From positions 1 to 64,000 of the forward strand of contig NZ_JAHLZF010000001.1 in assembly GCF_018967645.1 (NCBI RefSeq): a stretch of DNA of 64,000 nt, in the 5' to 3' direction. Under the pieces are notes generated by a model. That model searched no databases. It saw only the letters and a program-made list of their open reading frames with translations, and was not told the DNA's origin. Each line of letters begins with the position of its first letter. Position 1 is the first letter of the stretch. The stretch comes from Allobacillus halotolerans (GTDB taxonomy: Bacteria; Bacillota; Bacilli; Bacillales; Alkalibacillaceae). Shown piece by piece: positions 5,226 to 50,853 of the stretch. The position numbers and the translations under genes were made by a program.

Positions 5226-5249
5226 CGATGCGTGGAAGGAGAAGACAGG

Positions 5250-6518
5250 ATGGAAGAAACAGTGGATTATTCAATCTATCCGAGACATGATGTGTTATGT
5301 ATTGATATGAGGTCTTTTTACGCAAGTGTCGAGTGCATCAAGCGTGGACTTGATCCACAAACGACGTTGCTTGCAGTGGTGGGAGATCCGAATCGAAGTG
5401 GAAGCATTGTGCTCGCCGCTTCTCCCGCCTTAAAGAAAAAATATGGCATCTCCAATGTCAGCCGTTATTTTGAGTTGCCGGATGAACCAGATATTTTAAT
5501 TGCACCAGCACATATGGGAGATTATTTAAACGTTTCTGTGGAAATCACAAAAATGATCACCGACTTCGTTCCGAAAGAGTCCGTCCACGTTTATTCGGTG
5601 GATGAATTATGGGTGACCGTCGATGGATTGGAACGTTTATATGGATCGGTGTATGAAATCGCTGAACTCCTGCAACAAAATATCCGTGATCAATTTGGTA
5701 TGGAGTGTGTTGTCGGGATCGGTGACAATAAATTCTTGGCAAAGGTCGTCATGGACATTCATGCCAAAAAAGCAGCCGACGGAATTGCCGAATGTCGGTA
5801 CGAAGACGTCTCGCGATTGCTATGGCCAATTCCCATCGAAAAGATTTGGGGCATCGGTTCGCGAATGATGCGCAACTTGAACCGAATGGGAATCGTTACA
5901 CTTGGCCAATTGGCTCATACGCCACTGACTGCATTGAAAAAACGTTTTGGAATTATGGGCGAACAGCTTTATTGGCATGCGTGGGGTGTTGATTTAAGTC
6001 CGGTTACCGGCAACTTCACCAAAGACGAGCAAAAAGGCTACGGCCACGGAATGACGCTTTTAAGAGATTATGAAAAAAGTGAAATCTATGCTTGCTTACT
6101 TGATTTATGTGAAGAAGCATGCAGACGGGCGAGAAGAGATGAAAAAGAAGGGCGCACCGTACATCTGGGGATCGGCTATTCAACTGAAACAGGAGGCGGA
6201 TTCAGTCGCTCGGTTTCACGGGATGTCGCCAGCAATGAAACCTTAGATATTTATGAGATGTGTCTGCATTTATTCCATAAATTTTATGATGGAGAAAGTA
6301 AAATTCGTCGGGCATTTGTCACGCTAACCAACCTAAATGATGAAGTAGGCACACAGCTCGATTTATTTGAAAATCAAGTGAAAAAAAGAAGTGTCGGGGA
6401 AGTCATGGACCACATTCGCGAAAAATATGGTTCAACAGCCATTCTTCGGGCGAGCAGCTATACGACGGGGGGAATTGCTTTAGATCGAAGCAAGAAAATC
6501 GGTGGGCATTTTGCATAG
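5250..6518 (+). CDS. Y-family lesion-bypass DNA polymerase (UvrX/YqjW type)
   Basis: An error-prone polymerase that copies past damaged bases. Residues about 14-30 contain CIDMRSFYASVE with the first catalytic Asp; VYSVDELWVTVDG supplies the Asp-Glu metal pair. A helix-hairpin-helix/thumb region follows (KIWGIGSRMMRNLNRMGI), then the little-finger domain. QLDLF near residue 375 matches the beta-clamp binding motif. An in-frame GTG at 5232 overlaps the RBS, so ATG 5250, 8 nt after AAGGAG, is chosen. At 422 aa it matches UvrX/YqjW more than DinB. The LexA box at 4629 predicts SOS control. Confidence 0.93.
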   Translation: MEETVDYSIYPRHDVLCIDMRSFYASVECIKRGLDPQTTLLAVVGDPNRSGSIVLAASPALKKKYGISNVSRYFELPDEPDILIAPAHMGDYLNVSVEITKMITDFVPKESVHVYSVDELWVTVDGLERLYGSVYEIAELLQQNIRDQFGMECVVGIGDNKFLAKVVMDIHAKKAADGIAECRYEDVSRLLWPIPIEKIWGIGSRMMRNLNRMGIVTLGQLAHTPLTALKKRFGIMGEQLYWHAWGVDLSPVTGNFTKDEQKGYGHGMTLLRDYEKSEIYACLLDLCEEACRRARRDEKEGRTVHLGIGYSTETGGGFSRSVSRDVASNETLDIYEMCLHLFHKFYDGESKIRRAFVTLTNLNDEVGTQLDLFENQVKKRSVGEVMDHIREKYGSTAILRASSYTTGGIALDRSKKIGGHFA

Positions 6519-14621: not shown

Positions 14622-14930
14622 TTCCGAAGTACTCTCCAGCTGACTCGGGGTTATAGCGAGCTTCTATAGGACATTCCGACATATATCTCAGCTGACTTGA
14701 GGTTATAGAAGGCTCCTATAGGACATTCCGATATACATTCCAGCTGACTCGAGGTTATAGAGTGCTTCTATAAGACTTTCCGAAGTCGTTTTTTAGCTCG
14801 TTTAAGGGTATAGAGCACTTCTATAGGACATTCCTGCGAACTTTTCAGCTCGCTCGAGGTTATAGCACACTTCTATAGGACTTACCGGTATTATCTTTGT
14901 TCACTCGACTGTATCGGGTACTCCAACTAA
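14622..14930. repeat. 52-bp tandem repeat array with conserved hairpin
   Basis: Five units at 14622-14673, 14674-14725, 14726-14777, 14778-14830 and 14831-14882, then a decayed sixth to about 14930. Each is 52 nt (one is 53) and starts TTCC, contains CAGCT(G/C) or AGCT, then GAGGTTATAG, and ends CTATAGGAC(A/T). Every unit has TATAG-N7-CTATA, a 5-bp hairpin with a different 7-nt loop. The array fills the spacer between the kinase gene and aconitase. No open frame spans it, and there is no spacer/repeat alternation as in CRISPR. Confidence 0.9.
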
Positions 14931-42186: not shown

Positions 42187-42250
42187 ATTGGTTTATAACT
42201 TGGCTTTGTTAAAGTTCGCTGTTGATGATTAAGTATTGATTTCTCCCTGA

Positions 42251-42376
42251 TTTATCGACGGCTTCGCACGGTTTTTCGATGGCTTTGTCCAATTTATCGA
42301 CGGCTTCACTCGGTTTTTCGATGGCTTCGTTCAGTTTTTCGACGGCTTCACATGGTTTATCGGCAGAACGATGTTA
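42251..42376. repeat. 21-bp tandem repeat array
   Basis: Five clear units (42251, 42272, 42293, 42314, 42335) and a decayed sixth to about 42376, each exactly 21 nt with consensus TTT(A/T)TCGA(C/T)GGCTTC followed by a 6- to 7-nt variable end. Units alternate between TTTATCGAC and TTTTTCGAT types. The spacer 42148-42594 holds nothing else apart from the HAD terminator. A plus-strand heptapeptide frame is closed by TGA immediately before unit 1. Confidence 0.9.
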
Positions 42377-46819: not shown

Positions 46820-46911
46820 AAAAACACCTCACTTATCTGAATATTATTACTTATATATTTGCTGATTAATGAATATTTGTCAAATACGTATGAACGTCGG
46901 AAGGAATTTAA

Positions 46912-47037
46912 ATGAACTTTGAAGGATTGAATGTTAACGCTGAAGGATTTGGAATTAACACTGAAGTAGGCTCAATTAACACTGAAGAATTTGAAATAAA
47001 CGTTGAAGCTGACTTAATCAACACTGAAGAATGCTAA
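46912..47037 (+). CDS. Possible 41 aa heptapeptide-repeat peptide
   Basis: An ATG 6 nt after GGAAGGA (46899-46905) opens a frame of 41 codons made of six heptapeptides. The repeat pattern is (I/V)N(T/A/V)E followed by three variable residues, for example INTEEFE and INVEADL, ending INTEEC-stop. The frame follows the 21-nt DNA repeat exactly. Against a gene: a seventh DNA unit lies beyond the stop, other 21-nt arrays in the window are not coding, and the RBS itself resembles part of a decayed unit. Product strongly acidic; function unknown. Confidence 0.35.
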   Translation: MNFEGLNVNAEGFGINTEVGSINTEEFEINVEADLINTEEC

Positions 47038-47058
47038 ATAACCAATGAAGTAGCTTAA
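46912..47058. repeat. 21-bp tandem repeat array (seven units)
   Basis: Seven units of exactly 21 nt start at 46912, 46933, 46954, 46975, 46996, 47017 and 47038. The conserved part is (A/G)TTAACACTGAAG with GAA at the same place in every unit; the last 7-9 nt vary. A decayed eighth unit may lie upstream (from about 46890). TATTATGTAAACT of the dispersed 32-bp family lies just after it at 47091. Confidence 0.88.
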
Positions 47059-47104: not shown

Positions 47105-47120
47105 GCAAATAAATTTATTC

Positions 47121-47136
47121 ACTGATTGGGATCAGT
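47121..47136 (-). terminator. Weak hairpin downstream of the DprA-like gene
   Basis: ACTGAT / ATCAGT with a 4-nt loop; on the minus strand GAATAAATTTATTT follows. It is the only terminator candidate for the DprA-like/PRTase pair. Confidence 0.4.
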
Positions 47137-47165
47137 TACCTTTACTCCATCTCATTGTTGCAGAA

Positions 47166-48134
47166 TTAGAATAAAGATAACTGCTCATCATTCTTATCAG
47201 AATCGGAATCCTTCTTAGATTCTCCAACGCTATTTAGGCTTTGAATAAATTTCTCAAAGTCTTTTGGAGTAAATAACGGCATTGCTTGATTCTTTTCTAA
47301 TAATAATTGATTGCCACTAGCTTGATCATTATTTACAAGAAATTTATTCGGGTGATTTAAACAACCAAGTGGTTTTCTTTGTTTAAGACAAAAATCTACA
47401 GTATGCATGGTTCCGCCCTTAACATCGGTTTCAATTACAGCTACACCATCACTTACTCCACTTTGGATTCTATTTCTCTCAACAAAATAATTAGGTCTAC
47501 CTCTCACACCTAAGCCATATTCACTAAGTAAACATCCACCCGCAGCTATTATTTTATCTGCTAGCGGCCTGTTTTCCTTAGGGTATATAGGAGTATCTAA
47601 ACCCTGCGCTAGAACTGCTATCGTTTTCCCGTTAACTTCTATACAACCTTTATGGGCTAAAGTATCTATTCCTTTTGCTAAGCCACTTACTACAACTATT
47701 CCTCTTTCAGCAAAGTTCTTTCCAAATAAGTGACTACACGTACTTCCATACTCTGAGGGTTTACGAGTTCCTACAATTGCTACTAGTTTTTGATCATTTA
47801 AACAATTAAGATTACCTTTTGCATAAATTAATACGGGCGCATCCGGTATTCGTTTCAAGCGTTTAGGATACATTTCATCGCAGATCCCTATAACATGAAT
47901 GTTTAATTTTTTACATAGTTCAATTTCTGCTCTTGCTTTATCATTCGATTTTATTAATGTTTCCCATTCAGGGACTTTAATCTTGGAGTTGTTGTTATTT
48001 GTGTGCTTGATTAATCCCCATAATTCCTTTAAGTTGCTAGGTGTTTCTGTTGTAGTATGGATTATTTCAGTAACTTTCACTCTTCCTATACCTGGTAATT
48101 TTAACAAAGTAAGAATATGTTCTGTATGTAACAT
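47166..48134 (-). CDS. Divergent DprA/Smf-like SLOG-domain protein
   Basis: A 322 aa protein of the DprA/Smf family. A helix-hairpin-helix lies near the start (LLKLPGIGRVKVTEII), and the Rossmann-type SLOG domain spans about 105-270: VAIVGTRKPSEYG, SGLAKGIDTLAHKG, LAQGLDTPIYPKENRPL and RNRIQSGVSDGVAVIE. Two differences from housekeeping DprA: the usual SGSLITA loop reads KGGTMHTV, and no C-terminal winged helix is seen, the tail being DKNDEQLSLF. It lies 5 nt after a phosphoribosyltransferase gene. Canonical DprA loads RecA on incoming DNA; here a nucleotide-sensing or defence role is inference. RBS AGGAGG, 12 nt before ATG. Confidence 0.88.
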   Translation of the reverse strand: MLHTEHILTLLKLPGIGRVKVTEIIHTTTETPSNLKELWGLIKHTNNNNSKIKVPEWETLIKSNDKARAEIELCKKLNIHVIGICDEMYPKRLKRIPDAPVLIYAKGNLNCLNDQKLVAIVGTRKPSEYGSTCSHLFGKNFAERGIVVVSGLAKGIDTLAHKGCIEVNGKTIAVLAQGLDTPIYPKENRPLADKIIAAGGCLLSEYGLGVRGRPNYFVERNRIQSGVSDGVAVIETDVKGGTMHTVDFCLKQRKPLGCLNHPNKFLVNNDQASGNQLLLEKNQAMPLFTPKDFEKFIQSLNSVGESKKDSDSDKNDEQLSLF

Positions 48135-48139
48135 CTAGA

Positions 48140-48694
48140 CTAGTATCCTCCTGTCTCCCCAATTGCTAAACAATTGACCTTCTTTGCGCCATGATCTAAG
48201 AGGATCTTTTGACAAGCAAACAAAGAGTTATATGTTGTCGTTACATCATCTAAAATAAGAACTGTTTTTCCTTCAATTAAGTGTGAATTCTCTAAATGAA
48301 TCGATTGCAAGTGAACCTCTTGATTTCTGTCGCCTCCGTTTGTTAATTTTGCAATTTTAGAGTGTCTAACTAAACAAGAGGTTGCATCAACTCTATTGTT
48401 TTGTGAAGCGAGCTTTGTAGCTAATCTTTTTACACCGGAGTCTTTATTAGCTGGGATGTGAGAAGGTACATAGGTTAATAAAATATTATCTTTTAAATGG
48501 GGATTTAATAGATTAAAGAAATGGTTAATTGCTCCGGGTTTTCCTTCTTTTAAATCTAACACTAGGCCAGAAAAGGAATTGAAATTTGGATTTCTGACTA
48601 ACTTTCCCCACTCATTTTTAATCCGATAGGGATAATAAGTATTTAAAAATATTATCTGATTAGGATTATTATATTCCTCATTCAAAAATGGCAT
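48140..48694 (-). CDS. Phosphoribosyltransferase-like protein paired with DprA-like gene
   Basis: A 184 aa type I phosphoribosyltransferase-fold protein, ComF-like in its C-terminal half: VLILDDVTTTYNSLFACQKI (about residues 142-161) is the PRPP loop, and LLTYVPSHIPANKDSGVKRL resembles the ComF substrate-side region. Two departures: there is no N-terminal zinc ribbon as in ComFC, and the loop reads TTTYNS where catalytic enzymes have TTGxT. It is the first gene of a two-gene unit with the DprA-like protein. AGGGGAG precedes the ATG. Codon use is AT-rich. Enzyme, regulator or ssDNA-binding helper are all possible. Confidence 0.82.
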   Translation of the reverse strand: MPFLNEEYNNPNQIIFLNTYYPYRIKNEWGKLVRNPNFNSFSGLVLDLKEGKPGAINHFFNLLNPHLKDNILLTYVPSHIPANKDSGVKRLATKLASQNNRVDATSCLVRHSKIAKLTNGGDRNQEVHLQSIHLENSHLIEGKTVLILDDVTTTYNSLFACQKILLDHGAKKVNCLAIGETGGY

Positions 48695-48706
48695 AAACTC
48701 TCCCCT

Positions 48707-48765
48707 TCATCATACGTTCAATCATCATAAGTTCAATCATCATAAGTTCAGTGATTTTTATGATG
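48707..48765 (-). promoter_or_regulatory. 15-bp iterons forming the promoter/operator of the PRTase-DprA unit
   Basis: Three direct repeats at 48707-48721, 48722-48736 and 48737-48751; on the minus strand each reads (T/C)TGAAC(T/G)TATGATGA. TTGAAC resembles a -35 and TATGAT a -10, and adjacent units place the two 16 nt apart, giving overlapping promoters. CATCATAA (48739-48746) and TTATGATG (48758-48765) also form an inverted repeat, and ATGATGAA recurs at 48781. This suggests cooperative binding by a dedicated regulator, possibly one of the two products. Confidence 0.65.
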
Positions 48766-48873
48766 TCTTCTGTAATGTGTATGATGAAACCATTTTTGTT
48801 ATGAATCGTATAAAATTGATAAGGAAAAATTCATAAGATGCACTATTCTCTAACTTACTCTATCACTTTCAGT

Positions 48874-49620
48874 CTACTTCTCAAGATCACTCTCATTAAA
48901 CCATCGGACAAAATCCGTTGTTGTGGATCCACTGCTGAAGCCGTGTCCGTTTAATGAGTTTTCTGGAAAAGTTCTTTCATCAAATTCATTGTACGATGTC
49001 CAGCCAAAATAGATTAAATGATTCAAGCCCATGTGACTAAACAAATTCAACCCTTGTCTGTCTGGAATGGCTAAATTCGCAGTATTTTTATAGAAGGATT
49101 GCCAATCTTCAGGCAATGTAAACACGCCAAAGGAATTCTCTCCTACAGGAATCTCTCGTTCAATTTGTACCCGTGGTGTGTACATATGATTACCACTGGA
49201 AATTTGATAATTACGATCTCGAATAATGTAGTACTTCAGAGAGCTTAGTTCGTCTTTTGGGTTAAAGTTCCATAAAATATGGAACGTAGACGGTTTTTCA
49301 GCATCTATCTTCCACATAAGAGGTTCTCCGCTTGTATTTATGTGAATAGGTTCCCACTTTCTACTGCTCCACTCCCAGTAGCTGACCCCATATTTCTCAG
49401 ATTTAGATATAAACGGGACAAAAACGTGCTCACGATCCAATTGAATGGTGTCCTGGATTTGATCTACTTCAGCTTGAGGAAATGTTTCATTGATTTGCTT
49501 GACTAATTGTTCATCTGATAGAAACCCAGTTGGCTTGGAAAAATAGTACCAATAGATGAAGAAAAGGATAATCAGAATAAAGACCGGAGCAGTGATTGTA
49601 AATAATTTTCTTTTTGTCAT
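48874..49620 (-). CDS. Membrane-anchored protein of unknown function
   Basis: A 248 aa protein with one N-terminal membrane helix (residues about 7-27, ending in FIYWYYFSKP) and an extracytoplasmic domain rich in aromatic residues (YGVSYWEWSSRKWEPIH, HILWNFNP, FGWTSYNEFDERTFP). I do not recognise the family. Its ATG overlaps the stop of the upstream gene by 4 nt (49617-49620), so the two are translationally coupled and probably work together at the membrane. No signal-peptide cleavage site or catalytic motif is apparent. Confidence 0.82.
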   Translation of the reverse strand: MTKRKLFTITAPVFILIILFFIYWYYFSKPTGFLSDEQLVKQINETFPQAEVDQIQDTIQLDREHVFVPFISKSEKYGVSYWEWSSRKWEPIHINTSGEPLMWKIDAEKPSTFHILWNFNPKDELSSLKYYIIRDRNYQISSGNHMYTPRVQIEREIPVGENSFGVFTLPEDWQSFYKNTANLAIPDRQGLNLFSHMGLNHLIYFGWTSYNEFDERTFPENSLNGHGFSSGSTTTDFVRWFNESDLEK

Positions 49621-50330
49621 TGCTCTCCTACCTTTAATAATAATTCATCTGATCGAAAATAGTATTGACTCTCTGGAGTGGTTATTAGTAGACCTCTTCC
49701 ATCTTTCTCTATGTAAATAGCTGAACTCACTCCACTTCCCCACTTTGAATCGAATTCCGTCAAAAAGTATGGAAACCTCTCATCGATAGCTTCAGCTTGT
49801 GGAGTCATGCTGGTTGCGACTTCGTCGTACCACTTGTCACTATGAATCGCTGCCCTGTTTAAGTCCTTCAATTGCTTAGTAAACTCATTTTTATTAAACG
49901 AAAACTCTTCAGCAGATGGGTGGATTGAGATGACTGAAGCATGATCGGCATTCGCTATGTATGTAGAGAGTTGATCTTCCGGGTAAACGAGATGGTTGAG
50001 TGGAATAGTCAACAAAGAAGTGAAGAGAAAAATAAATTGACCCGCAAATCCAATCCAAGCAAAGGGACGATACATTTCCCATCTCCCTTTTTTGCCTATA
50101 AAAAAAACCATCAAAATCCAAACACCTAACGGCAAGATTGGTAGCCGAATCCAGGAACCGAATACCTCTAGATTGACCGTAAACGCTAAAATACCGATAA
50201 AAGTAACCACTAAAACCTTCCAAAAAGCCGGTTTCTCCTGCAATTTCTTATATGTAAAATAAGCAATCGCAAAAATAGAAAACCAAGAAATTATCGTAAA
50301 TATAGTTGTTATAACACTTACGTCTCCCAT
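49617..50330 (-). CDS. Polytopic membrane protein of unknown function
   Basis: A 237 aa protein with about four N-terminal membrane helices (residues about 5-115) followed by an extracytoplasmic domain of about 120 residues, which contains IYIEKDGRGLLITTPESQYYF. It is the first gene of a two-gene operon and overlaps the next gene by ATGA. RBS AGTGAGGTGA precedes the ATG. No match that I recognise. The pair lies between the PRTase-DprA unit and a 310-bp inverted-repeat element, all on the minus strand. Confidence 0.82.
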   Translation of the reverse strand: MGDVSVITTIFTIISWFSIFAIAYFTYKKLQEKPAFWKVLVVTFIGILAFTVNLEVFGSWIRLPILPLGVWILMVFFIGKKGRWEMYRPFAWIGFAGQFIFLFTSLLTIPLNHLVYPEDQLSTYIANADHASVISIHPSAEEFSFNKNEFTKQLKDLNRAAIHSDKWYDEVATSMTPQAEAIDERFPYFLTEFDSKWGSGVSSAIYIEKDGRGLLITTPESQYYFRSDELLLKVGEQ

Positions 50331-50398
50331 AAGTCACCTCACTTAAATCATGTGAACCTTTCATTATCGCAATGTATGTAATCACACTGTAAGTATGT

Positions 50399-50420
50399 GG
50401 TTCTCCAAGTAGAACCTTTT
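50399..50420. other. Small hairpin upstream of the membrane-protein pair
   Basis: GGTTCT / AGAACC with a 6-nt loop, followed on the plus strand by TTTTGATTC. It lies in the leader of the minus-strand operon. It could be a weak plus-strand terminator or a leader structure. The rest of 50331-50512 shows no gene. Confidence 0.3.
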
Positions 50421-50512
50421 GATTCACTAATATTATATTACCTTTATTTGTAAGCTTGTTACTCCCTTGATGAAACCAGTATAACAGTCGGTACTAAAAA
50501 TGTTTTCAAAAA

Positions 50513-50822
50513 AATAAGAGGCTGGGACAAATTAAAGTTTTACACTCAGAAACACGAATAGCAATCTAACTTAGCGTAGGAAATATACGGAGACTTCTGC
50601 GGTCAACTAAATGCGGCCACGTCCTGTGGCCAACGTTGACACTAGCCCGTCCTGAGCGTCGGGAGCAAAAGCCTAGGTGAGACCCCGCAGTGCGAAGCAC
50701 GAGGAGGCTCAACAGCTGCCCGCGAAAAGCGGAGTATATTTCCGAAGCGGATATTTCCGGATTACTAAATTATATTATTCGTATCTGAGTCAACTTTGAA
50801 GGTTTAGTCCCAGCCTCTTATT
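50513..50822. repeat. 310-bp element with perfect 16-bp inverted termini
   Basis: AATAAGAGGCTGGGAC (50513-50528) and GTCCCAGCCTCTTATT (50807-50822) are perfect inverted repeats. Inside, GGAAATATAC pairs with GTATATTTCC, GTCAAC...GTTGAC encloses GGCCAC-gtcct-GTGGCC, and GTGC-gaa-GCAC forms a further hairpin. GC content is clearly above the surroundings. From memory, elements beginning GAGGCTGGGACA and containing GAGACCCCGCAG recur in many Bacillaceae genomes. The sequence has no open frame, so it behaves as a mobile or structured-RNA repeat. It may also terminate tatA transcription, 31 nt away. Confidence 0.75.
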
Positions 50823-50853
50823 ATTTGCTCGTTCTGTATAATCAAAGTCTATC

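Follow-up and report, generated by a model that had tools for sequence, protein, structure and literature searches.

What does a DprA-like gene do beside a phosphoribosyltransferase (PRTase) gene, away from any competence locus? We addressed this question for a gene pair of Allobacillus halotolerans, which lies in a window of 64,000 nucleotides, the whole stretch of DNA that we analysed. An initial annotation had described a DprA/SLOG-type gene and a PRTase gene lying 5 nt apart in AT-rich DNA. Both open reading frames (ORFs) are present with the corresponding domains, on the same strand and with the PRTase gene first; the gap covers 48135-48139, and the G+C content is 34.5% for shosA and 33.2% for shosT, compared with 38.6% for the whole window. 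We found no competence gene elsewhere in the window among the 12 ORFs scanned against NCBIfam and the 7 scanned against Pfam, of 50 others of at least 100 aa. The features discussed here are:

48140 to 48694, minus strand: shosT, the upstream gene of the pair, encoding a 184-aa PRTase, the predicted toxin
47166 to 48134, minus strand: shosA, encoding a 322-aa DprA/SLOG-type protein, the predicted antitoxin
48700 to 48705, minus strand: GGGGAG, resembling a ribosome-binding site, 5 nt ahead of the shosT start and read directly from the sequence
48707 to 48751: three 15-bp direct repeats immediately upstream of shosT
48221 to 48262, minus strand: PRPP loop VLILDDVTTTYNSL, ShosT residues 145-158, from alignments A1 and A4
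47169 to 47234, minus strand: predicted flexible tail of low pLDDT, ShosA residues 301-322
47169 to 47183, minus strand: QLSLF, ShosA residues 318-322, a candidate sliding-clamp-binding pentapeptide with pLDDT of about 51-52
47120 to 50821: variable segment holding shosTA and an unrelated two-gene unit (48874-50330)

We are highly confident that the pair is a ShosTA-family toxin-antitoxin module. ShosA matched PF02481 (DNA_processg_A) with an E-value of 7.1e-64 (215.3 bits, cut-off 29.6), and its best match in the PADLOC defence library was ShosA PDLC03961 (E 2.7e-73). ShosT matched PF00156 (E 1.3e-6, 28.3 bits, cut-off 26.3) and the PADLOC model ShosT PDLC03962 (E 4.6e-21, model positions 39-212 of 237). 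A full-length match of ShosT to the NCBIfam ComF family was absent: 27.8 bits were reached over positions 125-187 of 190, with a cut-off of 233.55. The earlier view that the two genes form one unit holds, and a defence module is its best reading. The ShosTA matches exceed the PADLOC matches to PsyrTA (PsyrA 2e-35, PsyrT 9.9e-6). PsyrTA (RqlHI) has the same combination of a DprA-like antitoxin and a PRTase-containing toxin, but the PsyrT match is weak and covers model positions 575-684 of 689, and the window toxin lacks the long N-terminal part. The PADLOC ShosT model alone was rejected as a marker of presence: it had matches in all 60 genomes and in 13 of the 14 controls, and we infer that most of these matches are ComF-like or other PRTases. 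The search for homologous adjacent pairs that had been proposed returned 68 cases, counted over the loci examined with overlapping fetches included, in which a PRTase frame adjoins a DprA frame; 40 remained after removal of those at least 70% identical, with DprA-type ORFs shorter than 230 aa or open-ended excluded.

Predicted structures pointed to the same family. Both AlphaFold2 models were confident (pLDDT 94.4 for ShosA and 95.5 for ShosT); solved structures were searched with Foldseek for ShosT only, and ShosA was compared by VIA-align. The first three Foldseek ranks for ShosT were the ShosT entries 8zvd, 8zvc and 8zvb (8zvd, E 4.7e-6). By VIA-align, ShosT 8zvc (Z 11.4, 3.1 Å over 156 residues) was tied with ComF 7p0h (Z 11.2), and the PRTase fold leaves window ShosT unseparated from ComF. 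ShosA aligned with DprA 3maj (Z 34.2), DprA 3uqz (Z 32.0) and E. coli ShosA 8zva (Z 27.9; 24% identical by structure alignment). Structure alignment A3 comprised the window protein with 43 of the 84 references found, and A4 the window protein with 34 of the 44. Window ShosA and the housekeeping DprA of S. pneumoniae (3uqz) have in common a SLOG/Rossmann core and a helical N-terminal part. Window ShosA differs from housekeeping DprA in three respects: (i) it scored 187.1 bits against the NCBIfam DprA equivalog, under the cut-off of 191.15; (ii) it is paired with a PRTase; and (iii) it carries a C-terminal motif that occurs in none of 31 housekeeping DprA proteins of relatives.

The closest known counterpart is ShosTA of E. 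coli and P2-like phages (8zva, 8zvb-d, 9vzo, 9w2p-q; Rousset et al. 2022, PMC9122126), likewise a DprA-like protein with a PRTase. It corresponds to the best PADLOC matches of the window pair and to the top Foldseek matches of its ShosT, and its ShosA likewise ends in a clamp-type sequence, QLSLL. The gene order differs, T then A in the window and A then T in phage P2_4C9, and window ShosT has 184 aa compared with 424 aa in the reference and a Tyr in place of the PRPP-loop Gly. Also related are compact pairs found in Paenibacillus tengchongensis (L071), in Fischerella (L059) and on the Hymenobacter plasmid pHB (L037), which have the T-A order seen here, stand-alone PRTase frames of 175-194 aa, and adjacent or overlapping genes. 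The L071 proteins are 52% (ShosT) and 55-56% (ShosA) identical to those of the window. The L059 tail lacks the pentapeptide, and that of the plasmid-borne L037 has the relaxed form only. In L056 (5779-7503, with the same place in L043), the toxin frame, a ShosT-like PRTase, is open, and the ShosA gene after it is split between several frames.

The published accounts, in the portions that concern these systems, supply the probable roles. A DprA and PRTase pair from a P2 hotspot of E. coli gives protection from T7 and lambda, and the antitoxins of shosTA, 'syrTA' and rqlHI are DprA homologues (PMC9122126); in ShosTA, the toxin is the PRTase, and its DprA-like partner serves as antitoxin (PMC9122126, PMC12593503). 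ShosT is described as both a PRTase and a pyrophosphatase, upsetting purine metabolism and causing DNA duplications, filamentation and death, ShosA as a DNA-binding protein that likely recruits recombination factors, and T7 Gp0.7 as a trigger (all PMC12593503, a review citing Pu et al. 2025). According to the relevant part of PMC10732053, ShosTA is one of the systems that phage SSB activates. The toxin and antitoxin roles and the defence function that we propose are carried over from the E. coli literature; gene pair, family, fold, variable site and recurrent motif were observed here.

We then considered the end of ShosA, which reads ...NDEQLSLF. The pLDDT is 65, 52 and 51 in the final three blocks and at least 90 in all earlier ones. 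The bacterial sliding-clamp pentapeptide has the consensus QL[SD]LF, and we take QLSLF of ShosA to be such a clamp-binding pentapeptide. QLDLF is present in each of the two Y-family polymerases that we found in this genome, one of which is encoded in the window at 5232-6515, and the genome also has dnaN. Similar ends occur on other ShosA proteins: QLDLF (L045), QLELF (L042), QLNLF (L078, Anoxybacillus), QLEFF (L071), QLKLL (L076, Clostridium), QLNMF (L211, Priestia plasmid), QMTLF (L216, Tunicatimonas plasmid) and QLSLL (L221, E. coli phage P2_4C9). Over residues 22-349, L221 ShosA is identical to the deposited ShosA 9vzo; the 9vzo tail is QQLSLLGDE, and the deposited chain 8zva is shorter, ending 14 residues earlier, so the tail is not needed for the fold. 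This recurrence of a clamp-type motif on a predicted flexible tail, in distant relatives that include the E. coli reference, is the new element here. In the literature that we searched, a scope outside which Pu et al. 2025 (Nat Commun 16:3141) lay, we found no work linking ShosTA with the sliding clamp and none combining the sliding clamp, anti-phage activity and a clamp-binding motif; clamp-binding motifs and DprA were mentioned together only in unrelated passages.

We counted the motif as Q[LMI]x[LMIF][FL] within the last nine residues, a pattern written after the first examples had been seen. It was present in 8 of the 40 paired non-redundant ShosA proteins, where shuffled sequences gave a mean of 0.04 and none of 2,000 shuffles reached 8. 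With the pattern unchanged, a later set from IMG/VR (77 ORFs reduced to 62, of which 44 paired and 18 unpaired; those shorter than 200 aa or open-ended excluded) gave 4 of 44 paired proteins (shuffle mean 0.05, none of 3,000 reaching that count) and none of the 18 unpaired; pairing here used a loose PRTase threshold (E 1e-2), and some of the 44 may be other than true ShosTA. We regard this as a partial replication because three of the four positives are kin of earlier ones (L236 of L216; L248 and L250 of L221) and the query alignment, A2, was made mostly of motif-bearing rows; the shuffles, moreover, ignore kinship. A tree of 84 proteins splits into sides of 46 and 38, a division taken from the tree after the fact, and the canonical motif was found in 11 of 46 on the ShosA side, 1 of 38 on the other side and 0 of 936 background ORFs (stop-to-stop frames of at least 250 aa, whose gene status is unchecked).

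Two other forms were also counted. A hexapeptide clamp motif, searched with two slightly different patterns, was found in 5 of 46 (shuffle mean 0.31) and, in the later paired set, 1 of 44 (shuffle mean 0.20); it was set aside as main evidence, its enrichment being weaker than that of the pentapeptide. The PIP-box-like ending Qxx[LIM]xx[FY], chosen after viewing the sequences, occurred in 2 of only 5 archaeal ShosA-like proteins versus 5 of the 936 background ORFs. Some archaeal ShosA tails are perhaps PIP-box-like ligands of PCNA.

How far does the motif argue for a clamp? A serious but less favoured explanation, which we hold as tentative, is that this is a ShosTA defence pair whose C-terminal motif is no clamp hook: ShosA would act only by binding DNA and forming oligomers, with a tail that is decorative or serves another partner. 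The canonical pentapeptide is lacking in 35 of the 46 proteins on the ShosA side (30 of 46 lack even the relaxed form), the SopEPhi and related proteobacterial group is without the motif, and the chain deposited as 8zva does without the last 14 residues. A decorative tail, however, fits poorly with an enrichment far above that of shuffles, housekeeping DprA and neighbouring ORFs, or with a motif state that needs at least seven changes on the tree, and the letters agree with the clamp consensus and with the genome's own Y-family polymerases. Judged from its sequence, docking of ShosA on DnaN through QLSLF is somewhat favoured.

We next examined the site of the pair. In a genome of the same genus (G001), the left flank aligns up to 47119 and the right flank from 50822; the interval is filled in G001 by 1.39 kb of other sequence, which includes a DUF6241 protein, and in the window by 3.7 kb. 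The pair is sporadic and absent at this site in the nearest genome, contrary to what conservation at a syntenic place in all relatives would give. A ShosT-like match (E 1e-8) was found in 5 of 397 genomes of the order, its own included. A second DprA was found in 2 of 40 genomes searched, this one and G026, and adjoins a PRTase in each; the other 21 genomes tested in the family carry one DprA apiece. Single-protein searches of the genome and viral contigs found no relatives; profile searches of the same did find them. Such searches gave 20 matches at 1e-12 in 398 genomes of the phylum and 5 at 1e-14 in 398 of the class, and these tallies were not used as ShosTA counts because matches near 50-60 bits are probably ComF. 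The nearest pairs found come from Paenibacillus, a genome of the same class (L180), a cyanobacterium, a planctomycete MAG, Neobacillus and Bacteroidota, a spread consistent with lateral transfer.

The variable segment also holds the two-gene unit at 48874-50330, which occurs elsewhere, separately, in G003, G007 and G010; the site has therefore gathered unrelated cargo. Its two genes overlap, show hydrophobic stretches by eye and have a sub-threshold match to YfjL_N only. At the right edge of the segment, 50505-50830 is a repeat some 310 bp long whose ends are inverted copies of GGCTGGGAC. Counting this copy, the genome has 34 matches to it, full or partial, and the repeat contains a Bacillaceae-1 RNA match (RF01690, 50591-50658).

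Flanking repeats had been reported as a 21-nt array and iterons. The array (46904-47050) and the three 15-bp repeats are real; the name iterons found no support. An iteron or plasmid-origin reading was rejected on two grounds: the window holds the core genes glnA, lexA, tkt and acnA, and the 15-bp repeat is absent from all six upstream regions of relatives' shosT that we compared, of which five have no direct repeat at all and one (L059) has a different, AT-rich 28-nt repeat. As read from the sequence, the 15-bp repeats are a possible operator; on the minus strand they also encode, by our reading, a short frame MMIELMMIERMMKGRVYAIFE that overlaps the shosT start. The 21-nt array was kept out of the module because its DNA is shared with the same-genus genome that lacks the pair; G001 has, again by our reading, a differing form of it. 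Tandem arrays with 21/42-nt or 52-nt units lie at 46904-47050, 42250-42362 and 14622-14881.

Neighbourhoods were also checked for defence genes, as proposed at the outset. Among relatives, the filamentous Pseudomonas phage PfAC02a (L222, 1549-5388) has an annotated ShosTA adjoining Kiwa genes. Within the window, the other 50 ORFs matched only mad1, mad2 and JetC of PADLOC (E 1e-5), one ORF each, and the mad1-matching ORF (280-678) matches HspR-type regulators too.

These observations bear on the idea that shosTA is chiefly a toxin-antitoxin module for addiction or stabilisation of a variable locus and plays no part in defence in this host. Location in a segment swapped for other DNA in a sister genome, and relatives borne on plasmids, would suit such a role, which we nevertheless consider unlikely: other relatives are found on phages, one of them next to the genes annotated as Kiwa, and the E. 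coli homologue guards against T7 and lambda in the relevant part of PMC9122126. Defence remains our preferred function for the pair.

The predicted toxin raises a separate point of chemistry. The ShosT PRPP loop reads DDVTTTYNS: the acidic pair is retained and the loop glycine is replaced by Tyr155. Gly occupies this position in 31 of 35 aligned sequences, the window counted, and the loop departs from that of a canonical type I PRTase. By sequence, the Tyr may mean that the toxin chemistry is altered or weakened. Pfam found no HAD domain in window ShosT, which is a bare 184-aa PRTase, a second point of difference from the long reference ShosT with its HAD-like part. Elsewhere a HAD hydrolase precedes or follows the PRTase in a single fused protein (L045, L211) or is encoded by a third gene (L213, L215); these are several architectures of one family, and the HAD part was not taken as defining ShosTA, as the PADLOC ShosT model spans just 237 positions. 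Loss of catalysis, with ShosT reduced to a decayed toxin or to a partner that only binds a ligand, would account for the Tyr where most sequences have Gly and for a HAD domain missing here and present, fused or as a neighbour gene, in L045, L211 and L213. We judge it improbable, since both ORFs are intact with confidently folded models, D149, D150, R110 and T153 are invariant among the 35, and the Gly is missing from further lineages as well (Asn in L071, Glu in L061, Thr in L238, His in L037).

Least of all do we favour the initial proposal that the PRTase makes a nucleotide-type messenger sensed by the SLOG protein, or that the pair controls DNA uptake, which we regard as very improbable: although the SLOG fold is common to ThsA, a messenger sensor (6lhx, Z 12.1), ShosA is far nearer to DprA (Z 34.2), the published roles, in the portions of the literature that treat ShosTA, are those of toxin and antitoxin, and the genome encodes, at other loci, both a further DprA (G000:C6, with 37% identity to ShosA across 212 aa) and a protein resembling ComF (G000:C8, 139 bits over positions 1-190, also under the cut-off of 233.55). 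On this last ground a competence function was rejected, and the pair does not represent the only dprA and comF copies of the genome.

Taken as a whole, a ShosTA-type defence module with ShosA docked on DnaN through QLSLF is in our view a probable account of the locus. In this model, ShosT would, by analogy, disturb the use of PRPP and purine nucleotides and so cause damage in DNA replication. ShosA would dock on the sliding clamp DnaN by its C-terminal QLSLF and be held at replication forks, where, thus tethered, it would bind single-stranded DNA, bring recombination to the damage and keep forks repaired. When a phage takes over replication, ShosA would lose its place or its partners, ShosT would go uncountered, and the infected cell would stop. 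The wider statement, that ShosA antitoxins are sliding-clamp clients, that the toxin is checked only while the host replisome is present and that ShosTA guards the host fork, we put forward at even odds.

The pair itself is a real ShosTA-family member at a variable site, and what deserves specialist attention is the clamp-type tail that recurs on ShosA. The locus adds a ShosTA-like pair to a family whose other 21 tested genomes have no second DprA. A clamp-type pentapeptide on ShosA proteins from Bacillota, Bacteroidota and an E. coli phage points to DnaN as a candidate factor. If true, clamp docking would help to explain how a relative of DprA became an antitoxin, and what ShosTA systems watch.
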